A stretch of 64,000 nt of DNA, taken from positions 1-64,000 of the forward strand of contig PBCC01000037.1 in NCBI GenBank assembly GCA_002716825.1, in the 5' to 3' direction. The DNA comes from Halobacteriovorax sp. Lineage in GTDB: Bacteria > Bdellovibrionota > Bacteriovoracia > Bacteriovoracales > Bacteriovoracaceae. Below are positions 50,974 to 55,540 of this stretch, one piece after another. The notes beneath the pieces were generated by a model. The model was not told the DNA's origin. It saw only the letters and a list, made by a program, of their open reading frames with translations, and searched no databases. Position numbers and translations under genes: made by a program. Each line of letters starts with the position of its first letter. Within the stretch, counting starts at the first letter, position 1.

Positions 50974-53193
50974 CTAAAGTTTCCGAGCTTTTTCAATTTG
51001 AGCCCGCGTCTCGTCGTCTAGATCAATATCGTCCTCTAGGAGTTTAATTGAGCCTCTAAGGGTCTTCATCATTTTACCTAGGCGATCTTCTAGTTTCTGT
51101 TTATCCTCTCGTGATTTTTGCTCACGAATTGTGGCATTCTCCATGTTGAATTCGAGCGAGTCAATTTTTCTTTTGAGCTCTAAAATCTTCATATCACGTG
51201 ATTTTACTTGAGATTGAGTATCCATTGTTACGAGTTCAAGCTGACTCTCAAGCTCTTTTTCTCTTTGTTTGACTTTATTAAAGTCGATTCTGATTTTTTG
51301 AGACAGTCGGTCAAACTCTTTTTGTAAGTTTTTGGCCTTCTCTTCAAAAAATTCCTTTCTCTCTTCAAGTACTCTGGTTCGATGTTTTGTTTCTTCACTT
51401 TCTTCAATATGACGCTTTTTCAAGATACTTATCTCAATGCGAGACTCTTCAAGCTCAGCCTTGAGTGTGAGTTTATCTTGTTGCAAAATTCGAACACTAC
51501 CTTTGAGATCATCCATCTGTTCTATAAGTCCAGACCTCTCCTCTCTAAGCTGCTTGATGGTAGCTTGTAAACGTAGCAGATCAGGCTGATCAAGCGAGCT
51601 CAGCACCTGACCTTTTGGCAATGGTTCTTCTGTCGATTTTGGAGCTCTAAAATGTTCACTTGTTGCATGACTTTCTTGATCATAAGAGAACTCTTTGGGT
51701 TCACTCATGGGAGCAATTGTTGTCGCCGCCGTTAGCTCTTCATCAATATCATCGCTTCCAACATCAAATGAAAGATCATCATCATCAAGCTCTCCTTCAT
51801 CATCTAAAGAGAAGCCGTCATCACTGCCTTCTTCTAGCAGAGAGTCGGTGGCGGTGGTCGTAGCGCTGTCATTCACGGCAGAAAATTCTGCCAAATCTTC
51901 TTCTTCAAGATTGAGGCTATCTGCATCGAGTTGTTGCGTTGTCGCTACTATTGTCGGATTCGTTTCATCGCCTAGGTCTAATTCGCCGTCATCATTGTCA
52001 TCAGACGCTTCAGTTTGCTCACTAGCACCCAGGTCCAATTCAAAGTCATCCGCTTCATCTAGATCTAAGTCACTGCTTGCACTCGCCGCAGGCTCTTCGC
52101 CAAGATCTAGATCCATATCTGTATCATCTCCAAGCTCTAGATCATCGGCGCCTAGACTGATAGAGACGTCATCATCATCTTCAGTATCGATTGCACTCTC
52201 AACGTCGCTAGATCCAAATTCTAGAGCGTCGTCTTCCTCAGACTCCTGATCTAAATCGAGCTCTTCTCCTTCGCCGCTGTCAAATTCAAGTGCACCTTCT
52301 TCAAGCTCGACCTCTTCGTCGTCAAACTCTAGGTCAGTTTCATCAAGATCGAGTTCATCATCACTAGACATTTCTACCTCTTCGGTGGATTCATCACTTA
52401 TGGCCGAAAGTTCATCTGAGTCCAACTCAAACTCACCTGTGCCATCTTCGGGAGACAGTCCGGCCTTAAAGCCAGCGGTCATATCTTCGTCGCTATTTCC
52501 AAAATCTACTTGTAATGTAGGAATATCGTCGACTTCTTCCGCTATGCCTAAACTATTATCCGGATCATAGTCGTCTGCACCAAGGTCACTAAACTCATCA
52601 AAGCTCTGTGTTCCATCGCTAGATGATGATCCAAAAACATCATCAAACTTTGCTTGAATCTCTAAGTTAAGTTCAGAATCTAATTCTGGGTTTGCCTTAG
52701 CCCCTGAGTGTTTATCAATTTCAGCTCGTACTTCTGGATTGAAAGTAAACTCTTTGATTGCCGGAGCCTTGCCACCGATGTCGCTAAGTTCAACATCCTC
52801 TAGAGCACTTTCATCGTGATCATCGAGCTGATGATCAATCAGATAGTCAGAGAGCTCGTAATCATTGAGCACTCCATTCACAATCTCGAGACTAAGTGGT
52901 TTGACGAGATATCCATGGGCAGCAAACTTTCCTTTTTGATGTTTTTTTAGATCCTTAATTCGCATCCCCGAAGAAAGAATCACTCGCCTGACATTTCCAT
53001 GGTCATAAAGCTCTTGATTCACTTGTTCAGCGTGCTTTTTGTCGAAATCAAAGTCGATGAAGAAAAGGCAGCGCTCATCTTCGATTTCTGCCTCTAGCCC
53101 ATCTAATGTGTCAGTTAGAACCACATCTGCGCCACTGATCATATCGACCAGTTCCTCAATTTCGCTGTCTTGTGTGAAAAACACTAATTTCAT
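50974..53193 (-). CDS. Pseudo-receiver / acidic repeat / coiled-coil protein (FrzS/AglZ-like layout)
   Basis: 739 residues in three parts. 1-115 is receiver-like: VFFTQDSEIEELVDM, FFIDFDFD in place of the phosphoacceptor strand, and VILSSG and YLVKP at the end. 115-535 is extremely acidic with repeats of LDLGxE/ELDLGDE type (ELDLDQESEED, DMDLDLGEEP, FELDLGASEQ). 545-735 is a long coiled coil (LRLQATIKQLREERSGLIEQMDDLKG and on). The order pseudo-receiver plus long coiled coil is that of Myxococcus FrzS and AglZ, polarity/motility scaffolds. Orthology is not shown. First gene of a three-gene operon with a diguanylate cyclase and phosphoesterase. Confidence 0.7.
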   Translation of the reverse strand: MKLVFFTQDSEIEELVDMISGADVVLTDTLDGLEAEIEDERCLFFIDFDFDKKHAEQVNQELYDHGNVRRVILSSGMRIKDLKKHQKGKFAAHGYLVKPLSLEIVNGVLNDYELSDYLIDHQLDDHDESALEDVELSDIGGKAPAIKEFTFNPEVRAEIDKHSGAKANPELDSELNLEIQAKFDDVFGSSSSDGTQSFDEFSDLGADDYDPDNSLGIAEEVDDIPTLQVDFGNSDEDMTAGFKAGLSPEDGTGEFELDSDELSAISDESTEEVEMSSDDELDLDETDLEFDDEEVELEEGALEFDSGEGEELDLDQESEEDDALEFGSSDVESAIDTEDDDDVSISLGADDLELGDDTDMDLDLGEEPAASASSDLDLDEADDFELDLGASEQTEASDDNDDGELDLGDETNPTIVATTQQLDADSLNLEEEDLAEFSAVNDSATTTATDSLLEEGSDDGFSLDDEGELDDDDLSFDVGSDDIDEELTAATTIAPMSEPKEFSYDQESHATSEHFRAPKSTEEPLPKGQVLSSLDQPDLLRLQATIKQLREERSGLIEQMDDLKGSVRILQQDKLTLKAELEESRIEISILKKRHIEESEETKHRTRVLEERKEFFEEKAKNLQKEFDRLSQKIRIDFNKVKQREKELESQLELVTMDTQSQVKSRDMKILELKRKIDSLEFNMENATIREQKSREDKQKLEDRLGKMMKTLRGSIKLLEDDIDLDDETRAQIEKARKL

Positions 53194-53387
53194 AATAATT
53201 TCTGACCCTTATACATTATCTCAATGATATCAGATGGTTCAATTCAATCAACGCACCGGAACATGGGACAATACTGCCTGGCTAAATGCATCTTCTAAGT
53301 TGCCCCACTAGGGCGGTCTGGATTACAATAGGCTTAACAATTGTCGCTTCTTTTCAGACAGTTAACTCAATCGGAGATGGATTACCG

Positions 53388-54455
53388 ATGCTAAGACTGA
53401 CAAAAACACTTGCCCTCACTACTTTATTCGCCTGGCCTATGGCCCAAGCGGCTGAGGTTTTACCTGCACCACTGCTGCAGCTCGATGATAAATTTTCACA
53501 CCATGTACTGGTGGCGGAAAAATCAACTCATCAACTTCACCTTTTTCAAAATGATAACGGTAAGCCAAAGCTAGTTAAAACTGTGCAAATGGCCACAGGT
53601 AAAAAAGCTGGCGATAAGATTTTTCAAGGTGATCATAGAACTCCTGAGGGCGTTTACCAGATGACCGAGTTTTTAACCCATGAAGATCTTATTAAAAGAC
53701 ACGGGAAAGCCGGAGAGATTTACGGCGTTGGCGCTTTTGTAATGAACTACCCTAACCCCATCGATGAACGTGAAGGTAAAACTGGCGGCGGGATTTGGAT
53801 TCACTCAACCAACGACGAAACGAGAATCGACAAGGGTCTTGATTCACGTGGCTGCGTCGTTACGGCCAATGTCGACCTGATTGAACTTGCAAAATATATA
53901 GAACTCAATCGAACTTCGGTCGTCGTTGTTCACAATCTCAACTATCTAAAATCAGATGCATGGGAAAGCGAAAGAGCAAATATTTTAAAAACTGTTTCAG
54001 ACTGGGCTTCGGCTTGGCAGTCTGAGGACATAACGACATACCTGAAACAGTACGATGCAAAGCAATTTACTGACAGAACCCGTGGGAACTACAGCGCATT
54101 TTCACAATATAAAAAGGCTGTTTTCTCAGCTCCAGGAAAGCCCGAAGTTAATCTTTCAAATATTTCTATTATGATGGCCAATGGCTATGCCGTGGCCACT
54201 TTTATTCAAGACTATAAAGCAACGAATCTAGCAGACGTCGGTAAGAAGCTTTTGTATCTCAAGAAAAATGAATATTACGAGTGGAAAATTGTTTCTGAGG
54301 TTTGGACAAAAAGTGGCATCGAGCCTTCTGAAGAGGAGCTTAATAAAGTTGCTTTTCAGCCTTCGATGCGGTTTTTCAAAACTCTTAACCCAGAGCAAAT
54401 CATGGAAATTATTCCAGCAAATGCAACTTCTGCGACTCAATCAGCAAGCAATTAA
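53388..54455 (+). CDS. YkuD L,D-transpeptidase/carboxypeptidase with NTF2-like domain (Csd6/Bd1075 layout)
   Basis: 355 residues from ATG at 53388 with GGAG 11 bases upstream; the frame could open at 53286 but only this start puts the signal peptide first (MLRLTKTLALTTLFAWPMAQA). YkuD domain about 35-195 with HRTPEGVYQM, IWIHSTND (His139) and LDSRGCVV (Cys156). A C-terminal NTF2-like region (about 205-325: WASAWQSEDITTYLKQYDAKQF, VATFIQDYKATN, YEWKIVSEVW). This two-domain form occurs in Helicobacter Csd6, Campylobacter Pgp2 and Bdellovibrio Bd1075, peptidoglycan carboxypeptidases that set cell curvature. Begins an operon with a bactofilin. Confidence 0.85.
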   Translation: MLRLTKTLALTTLFAWPMAQAAEVLPAPLLQLDDKFSHHVLVAEKSTHQLHLFQNDNGKPKLVKTVQMATGKKAGDKIFQGDHRTPEGVYQMTEFLTHEDLIKRHGKAGEIYGVGAFVMNYPNPIDEREGKTGGGIWIHSTNDETRIDKGLDSRGCVVTANVDLIELAKYIELNRTSVVVVHNLNYLKSDAWESERANILKTVSDWASAWQSEDITTYLKQYDAKQFTDRTRGNYSAFSQYKKAVFSAPGKPEVNLSNISIMMANGYAVATFIQDYKATNLADVGKKLLYLKKNEYYEWKIVSEVWTKSGIEPSEEELNKVAFQPSMRFFKTLNPEQIMEIIPANATSATQSASN

Positions 54456-54458
54456 TTT

Positions 54459-55193
54459 ATGGCCAAAGCTCAGGGACAAGATAAGCTCTCCTTCATTCTT
54501 TACACGAAGCAATTAGCTCCTCGTTATTACGAGATCAGTAGAAATTACTTCAAATTTTTAACTGTAGGACTGCCGGTTATTACTTTTATTTGTATCGGCG
54601 GTTTGATTGCATTTGCAGTCTACTTTAAGCAGCTTGAGGTTTTAGCCAAACGCAAAGAACCTGTTGTAATTAATAATCTTAGAGAAGATAACCTAGCTCT
54701 ATCAAATAAGATCTCAGAGCTCGATCAGCTCAACAAAAGCCTTGAGAATAAGCTAGCCTCACCTGTACAAACGGACAGAGAAATCGGAACACTATCTCTT
54801 TTCAAGCAGATTCAAGGTCAAAAAGATCTTTCTAAGTCACCGGCTTTAACGCTTGAAGAAGTTGAAGTTGTCCCCGTCGATAATGAGATTGCACTTAATT
54901 TCAAAATTGTTAATGCGACAAAAGACGGTGCAAGACAAGCCGGCTATCTCTTTGTGATTATGAAGGCGGGTAATCAAGTCGCTTTGTATCCTGAAGATGC
55001 CTTTGAACGAGATGAGATGCAGCTATCATTTAACAAAGGTGAATACTTTGCCACAAGTCGCTTTAGGCCTGTGCGCGCCGTTTTCCCTAGGGTCAGTGGA
55101 ACCAGAGAAGTCCTATTTAAGATTGTTATATTTTCCGCCACGGGTGACCTCGTTCAAAAGCAAATCGTTTCACAAACATTGGGGACTCCATGA
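54459..55193 (+). CDS. Membrane protein with coiled-coil, unknown family, in cell-shape operon
   Basis: 244 residues: short cytoplasmic start (MAKAQGQDKLSFILYTK), one membrane helix (about 33-53, FLTVGLPVITFICIGGLIAFAVYF), then a coiled coil (NNLREDNLALSNKISELDQLNKSLENKL) and a beta-rich periplasmic C-terminus (EIALNFKIVNATKDG, GYLFVIMKAGNQVALYPEDAF, GEYFATSRFRPVRAVFPR). I do not know the family. It is the middle gene, 3 bases after the YkuD gene and 4-base overlap with the bactofilin, so it probably links bactofilin filaments to the periplasmic enzyme. Confidence 0.75.
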   Translation: MAKAQGQDKLSFILYTKQLAPRYYEISRNYFKFLTVGLPVITFICIGGLIAFAVYFKQLEVLAKRKEPVVINNLREDNLALSNKISELDQLNKSLENKLASPVQTDREIGTLSLFKQIQGQKDLSKSPALTLEEVEVVPVDNEIALNFKIVNATKDGARQAGYLFVIMKAGNQVALYPEDAFERDEMQLSFNKGEYFATSRFRPVRAVFPRVSGTREVLFKIVIFSATGDLVQKQIVSQTLGTP

Positions 55194-55540
55194 GAGAGCA
55201 TAAAGAAGAAATGCAGGACAAGTCCTTTTCTTTCATAGGTAAAGGCTGTGTCATTTCAGGAAAGTTCTCACTCAAAGGAACAACTCATCTTGCTAGCCAC
55301 CTTGAGGGTGAGCTCATAATGGAAGATGATTCAAGGCTAACGATTGAACCAGAAGGATCTTTTGAAGGTCGACTTCAATCTCATGATATTGAAATATTTG
55401 GAAAGTTTGACGGAAACTTAATATCCACAGGCACTGTCATTATCCACTCTTGTGCCAGTGTTTCAGGTGATCTTGAAGCCAGCCATTTAATCGTCAAACC
55501 AGGTGCGACCGTGAATATCGAAGGTCGCACTCTTCACTGA
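55190..55540 (+). CDS. Bactofilin family cytoskeletal protein
   Basis: 116 residues: SFIGKGCVISGKFSLKGTTHLASHLEGELIMEDDSRLTIEPEGSFEGRLQSHDIEIFGKFDGNL... is the right-handed beta-helix of bactofilins (DUF583), here nearly filling the protein. Bactofilins polymerise without nucleotide and localise peptidoglycan enzymes. The ATG overlaps the stop upstream (ATGA). Stop abuts the convergent M16 gene. Confidence 0.9.
   Translation: MREHKEEMQDKSFSFIGKGCVISGKFSLKGTTHLASHLEGELIMEDDSRLTIEPEGSFEGRLQSHDIEIFGKFDGNLISTGTVIIHSCASVSGDLEASHLIVKPGATVNIEGRTLH

Follow-up and report, generated by a model that had tools for sequence, protein, structure and literature searches.

What might a membrane protein do whose gene is held between those of a predicted peptidoglycan-trimming enzyme and a bactofilin? 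The question is raised by three plus-strand genes in a 64,000-nucleotide stretch of DNA (the window) from Halobacteriovorax sp., the source being a 2.6 Mb draft genome that is 74% complete. The genes lie at 53388-54455 (355 aa), 54459-55193 (244 aa) and 55190-55540 (116 aa), with a 3-nt gap between the first two and a 4-nt ATGA overlap between the second and third. The coordinates, frames and gene order on which a first-pass annotation had proposed a three-gene operon were all reproduced. We refer to the second gene and its product as MID, a working name for the middle gene of the trio.

In the present work we argue that MID is, on the balance of the evidence, a membrane-spanning adaptor that would couple a bactofilin filament to a periplasmic L,D-carboxypeptidase. 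The cytoplasmic beta-hairpin of MID would dock on the filament formed by the operon's bactofilin, in the way described for the LmdC hairpin, its transmembrane helix and coiled coil would cross the inner membrane and extend towards the wall, and its Ig-like domain would bind, position or regulate the YkuD-NTF2 enzyme, the product of the preceding gene. In this way the filament would determine where tetrapeptide side chains are shortened to tripeptides, and this local trimming of the wall would bend the cell. The direct basis for this reading is the conserved gene order, the architecture of MID, the similarity of its anchor to that of LmdC, the gene fusions and the co-occurrence with a second bactofilin, from which we infer the two physical contacts, the orientation of MID in the membrane of the living cell, the activity of the enzyme and its effect on curvature.

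The YkuD-NTF2 enzyme and the bactofilin

The first gene (53388..54455, + strand) encodes a predicted YkuD-NTF2 L,D-carboxypeptidase with an N-terminal signal peptide. The first-pass annotation gave it the layout of Csd6, Pgp2 and Bd1075, and this is borne out by Pfam matches to YkuD (5e-15; residues 40-180, 53505..53927) and then to the NTF2-like domain Cds6_C (5e-19; residues 199-304, 53982..54299). Its best solved relative is PDB 7o21 (E 7e-43), followed by Pgp2 (6xj6/6xj7) and 4xzz. We read 7o21 as Bd1075 because its aligned chain matches a protein encoded by genome G154, which we take to be B. bacteriovorus HD100 and whose YkuD-NTF2 protein matches the aligned stretch of 7o21. The catalytic histidine and cysteine are in the Bd1075 arrangement, H139 and C156 aligning with the 7o21 chain; among 32 relatives of the enzyme these residues, S153 and G155 are invariant and W306, which follows the NTF2 domain and is apparently equivalent to W303 of Bd1075, is nearly so. 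The named relatives are from Halobacteriovorax, Bacteriovorax and Bacteriovoracaceae MAGs. An in-frame ATG upstream, at 53286, is an unlikely start because 53388 is where both the alignment and the signal peptide start. The protein would be an active L,D-carboxypeptidase with an effect on curvature.

Bd1075 of Bdellovibrio bacteriovorus (PMC8938487, 7o21) thus has the architecture of our enzyme, and its NTF2 domain directs it to the convex face of the cell (PMC8938487). It differs in having neither MID nor a bactofilin as a neighbour and in lacking the C-terminal tail motif AFQPSMRFF (54351..54377, + strand; consensus AFxPSxRFF), which is common to most Bacteriovoracaceae enzymes and is absent also from the YkuD-NTF2 enzymes of other phyla. 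We rejected this motif as a general means of docking to MID, as it is confined to Bacteriovoracaceae enzymes and missing from MID-linked enzymes elsewhere.

The third gene (55190..55540, + strand; domain residues 14-109) was also correctly recognised at first pass: the 116-aa product matches the bactofilin family PF04519 at 1.4e-18, with 67.3 bits against a gathering cut-off of 27.9, and the protein would form filaments. Two bactofilins were found in the incomplete (74%) genome. The other one (L096, G000:C10:4706-5044) adjoins parA, parB and ATP synthase subunit genes, and the Bdellovibrionaceae have a single bactofilin, with a comparable score.

Architecture of MID

MID (54459..55193, + strand) is an undescribed bitopic membrane protein of 244 amino acids. 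An AF2 model built with 33 sequences (mean pLDDT 90, pTM 0.60) has two strands at residues 9-14 and 22-27, a single helix at 28-100 and a beta-sandwich at about 130-240. The strands form an N-terminal cytoplasmic beta-hairpin (residues 9-27, 54483..54539), the proposed bactofilin-docking element; a profile of the MID N-terminus matches the N-termini of LmdC-type M23 proteins. The continuous helix holds both a transmembrane segment (about residues 36-54, 54564..54620; hydropathy 2.44 over 19 residues) and a coiled coil (about 55-100, 54621..54758), in agreement with the earlier description of a bitopic coiled-coil protein, and an Ig-like beta-sandwich (130-240, 54846..55178) completes the chain. 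Across the family the N-terminal flank of the transmembrane segment is more positive than the C-terminal flank and the beta-domain occurs fused behind a secreted enzyme (see below), both of which point to a periplasmic location for the coiled coil and C-terminal domain.

No Pfam or NCBIfam family matched MID, and scanning 33 members gave no Pfam match beyond weak noise; DUF6776, a candidate relative, was rejected on the same scan. Nor could the C-terminal domain, a generic sandwich of Ig-like fold, be named by fold search, which returned generic beta-sandwiches alone, with uninformative viral matches; the best target-normalised TM-score is 0.62, to 3isy. At E<=1e-3 homologues occur in 184 of 369 Bdellovibrionota genomes, though some of the weakest may be spurious.

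Similarity of the MID anchor to LmdC

The closest known system is LmdC-BacA of Hyphomonas neptunium and Rhodospirillum rubrum (PMC10945521). LmdC has the same plan of hairpin, transmembrane segment, coiled coil and periplasmic C-terminal domain, and its gene, like that of MID, adjoins a bactofilin gene. Its cytoplasmic peptide binds BacA with a KD of about 15 uM, and mutations in the hairpin abolish its recruitment (PMC10945521). LmdC, however, is itself an M23 enzyme, whereas MID lacks a catalytic domain and has an Ig-like one, the YkuD-NTF2 enzyme beside it being a separate protein; we do not file MID as LmdC because none of 33 members has an M23 match and the AF2 model shows a beta-sandwich instead.

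We retrieved LmdC-type M23 proteins by their catalytic half only, and many of their genes adjoin a bactofilin gene. Their N-termini align with those of Desulfobacterota MID proteins at an hhalign probability of 96-97%, against at most 4.4% for controls; a further control set, of other N-anchored families, had no members. The similarity is weak with a broad MID profile (39-63%) and with the Bacteriovoracaceae profile, the window's own family (1-44%), which tells against the adaptor reading. A profile of the hairpin, at 25 residues too short for significance, has M23 proteins enriched among its matches.

The first-pass annotation had not seen the role of physical link between filament and enzyme described for this family. 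The role itself has precedents, three membrane proteins (LmdC, Csd5 and Csd7) being known to join bactofilins to wall enzymes or to the wall itself (PMC10945521, PMC9507126). The two from Helicobacter pylori, Csd5 and Csd7, which we liken to MID by description, are non-enzymatic transmembrane proteins contacting CcmA; Csd5 ties CcmA to the wall and Csd7 stabilises the wall enzyme Csd1 (PMC9507126). By the same descriptions they differ from MID in that Csd5 has a periplasmic SH3 domain and the enzyme that Csd7 serves is an M23. Such adaptors are already known; the MID family, and its occurrence with enzymes of the Csd6 and Csd4 types, appear to be undescribed, no account of the family or its cassette having been found in the open-access literature searched.

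Conservation within the Bdellovibrionota

At testable Bacteriovoracaceae loci the YkuD gene lies immediately upstream of MID in 51 of 51 and the bactofilin gene comes next in 52 of 52, and as this order survives outside the genus, where MID identity is 21-46%, it is not due to chance. In the other Bdellovibrionota families MID is followed by a bactofilin at all 19 loci and YkuD is alongside at one (G309), most of the MID-bearing genomes of these families having a YkuD-NTF2 gene elsewhere. The place of MID between the two genes, whose conservation across the Bdellovibrionota the first-pass annotation had named as a test, thus holds throughout the Bacteriovoracaceae, and in other families it is the bactofilin neighbour that persists.

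That MID and bactofilin stand without a YkuD gene in most families counts against the enzyme link, and the unbroken adjacency of MID and bactofilin favours the strongest alternative: that MID is mainly a partner of the bactofilin, as a membrane anchor or wall-sensing clamp, and that the YkuD-NTF2 enzyme is co-expressed in the same shape pathway with no contact to MID. The precedent of Csd5, which binds CcmA inside the cell and peptidoglycan outside (PMC9507126), also speaks for it. We nevertheless regard it as rather unlikely, given the loci of other phyla discussed below.

The presence of MID coincides with that of a second bactofilin: two bactofilins occur in each of 12 Bdellovibrionota genomes with MID, and one or none in 21 without a MID match (Fisher 3e-9, a value that ignores kinship, with several of the MID-less genomes incomplete). 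The Bdellovibrionaceae, including the genome encoding Bd1075, have the enzyme and one bactofilin and lack both the second bactofilin and MID. The neighbourhood of Bd1075 contains nothing resembling MID, and weak MID matches in this family (E about 3e-4) were not taken as orthologues. Since Bd1075 reaches the convex face without either protein, the enzyme does not need a MID adaptor everywhere. One Bacteriovoracaceae genus (G032, G106, G107 and G108; 88-99% complete) lacks MID, YkuD-NTF2 and any bactofilin, and its cell shape would be informative; the fragmented genome G096 has the enzyme and no match to MID or bactofilin. M99 was not found in the 21 Bdellovibrionota genomes searched for it.

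The flanks are conserved too. The Bacteriovoracaceae operon is flanked by a pair of M16 peptidase genes, and both M16 genes lie within about 2.5 kb of YkuD at 10 of 11 Bdellovibrionaceae loci, with one M16 gene at the eleventh, suggesting that the two families share an ancestral locus. One gene separates Bd1075 from an M16 pair resembling that of the Bacteriovoracaceae operon (L227). Across the Bdellovibrionota a block of GGDEF, coiled-coil gene, MID, bactofilin and M16 pair is widely kept, so that part of the linkage there could be frozen gene order. In the window the coiled-coil gene (50974-53193), beside the GGDEF gene, encodes a divergent, acidic protein of 739 amino acids with no confident Pfam match; these two genes are often syntenic with MID-bactofilin across the phylum.

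MID clusters and fusions in other phyla

The MID family is not confined to the Bdellovibrionota: clusters of the form YkuD-MID-M99-(M23)-bactofilin also occur in the Desulfobacterota and in further phyla. In KSB1, SM23_31, Latescibacterota and deltaproteobacterial bins a MID homologue lies directly downstream of the enzyme, usually followed by M99, YkuD being present by construction because these loci were fetched by the enzyme. A sample of 297 Desulfobacterota genomes was searched with the MID profile alone, a few of them having contributed rows to it. Of the 29 unfused MID genes examined there, 22 come directly after YkuD-NTF2 and 19 directly before M99 (PF17033, E down to 3e-41), and for 16 a bactofilin gene is no more than 3.5 kb away; the clusters often include an LmdC-like M23 together with a bactofilin. 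The order is YkuD-MID-M99-M23-bactofilin at L306 and L308, YkuD-MID-M99-bactofilin at L288, L316, L319-L321 and L339-L341, and YkuD-MID-bactofilin at L324 and L343. This recurrence of MID beside shape enzymes and bactofilins in several phyla suggests that it ties the filament to the cell-bending enzyme.

At three loci (L164, L315 and L318) YkuD, NTF2 and the MID beta-domain are encoded by a single gene (domain E 5e-25 to 9e-27), and each of these genes has a bactofilin gene before it and M99 after it; L315 also has a separate MID. A weaker fusion of the same kind (2e-6) occurs at L179, in a different supported clade of the enzyme tree, and two lineages at least thus carry the Ig-like domain of MID fused to YkuD-NTF2. 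For the L318 fusion, the AF2 model (pTM 0.65) places the beta-domain behind YkuD and NTF2 on a disordered linker, so that no interface between enzyme and domain is predicted. No bactofilin hairpin is recognisable in the L164, L315 and L318 proteins, and this, like the lack of a predicted interface, weighs against the adaptor reading. Aminicenantes L187 and L191, considered as further fusions, were rejected, their C-termini matching the MID domain at hhalign values of at most 2%.

In an enzyme tree of 72 rows the MID-linked state takes 8 changes, compared with 23.4 in shuffles. The Bacteriovoracaceae enzymes form a supported clade whose sister group is uncertain, the tree not placing Bd1075 as closest. 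The clade also contains an unlinked copy from G353, a member of another Bdellovibrionota family in which this Bacteriovoracaceae-type enzyme (L226) lies apart from the genome's own MID-bactofilin pair; the copy was probably acquired by transfer. Very long YkuD-NTF2 enzymes (774-815 aa) occur at L328, L329 and L335, and the neighbouring protein has a MID-like N-terminus without a recognised MID beta-domain.

These loci bear on the alternatives. A MID that was mainly a bactofilin partner sits poorly with its lying, outside the Bdellovibrionota, more often directly after YkuD than near a bactofilin, and with the two lineages in which its periplasmic domain is joined to the enzyme. The fusions, the association with M99 in addition to YkuD and the generic Ig-like fold would suit a domain that binds peptidoglycan or substrate and passes it to the carboxypeptidases encoded nearby, with the link to bactofilin being secondary; this we consider improbable, as it leaves the conserved cytoplasmic hairpin and the strict pairing with bactofilin in the Bdellovibrionota unexplained. 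That the genes are clustered through descent alone, with no functional complex behind the arrangement, as the widely kept block from GGDEF to M16 and the position of Bd1075 near an M16 pair might imply, is scarcely credible when other phyla cluster the same genes with different flanks and their domains fuse. The adaptor reading is the one that we retain, and the first-pass interpretation as a whole is partly supported: its idea of a physical link between filament and enzyme gains support, with the link itself still conjectural.

Implications for cell shape

The YkuD-NTF2 and M99 enzymes that cluster with MID share Pfam families with Csd6 and Csd4 of H. pylori and with Pgp2 and Pgp1 of Campylobacter jejuni, and carboxypeptidases of these two types act in sequence on peptide stems (PMC10151779). 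Unlike the Helicobacter and Campylobacter systems, the MID clusters put both enzymes with a bactofilin in one locus. Tentatively, and with less confidence than we attach to the adaptor role itself, MID may represent an adaptor family that is widespread, so far undescribed and central to an ancient cell-shape cassette made up of YkuD-NTF2, MID, M99, M23 and bactofilin. A single membrane protein would in that case connect the filament in the cytoplasm with the two carboxypeptidases that trim peptides one after the other in helical pathogens; the Bacteriovoracaceae operon would then be a reduced form without M99.

The clusters unite, within single loci of other phyla, Csd6-type, Csd4-type, M23 and bactofilin parts that have been studied separately in Helicobacter and Campylobacter. 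Asymmetric targeting of an enzyme to one lateral wall is described as having no known mechanistic basis (PMC8938487), and MID, with a hairpin of the filament-binding type and a domain that is elsewhere fused to the enzyme, makes the one-sided confinement of a wall enzyme directly testable.
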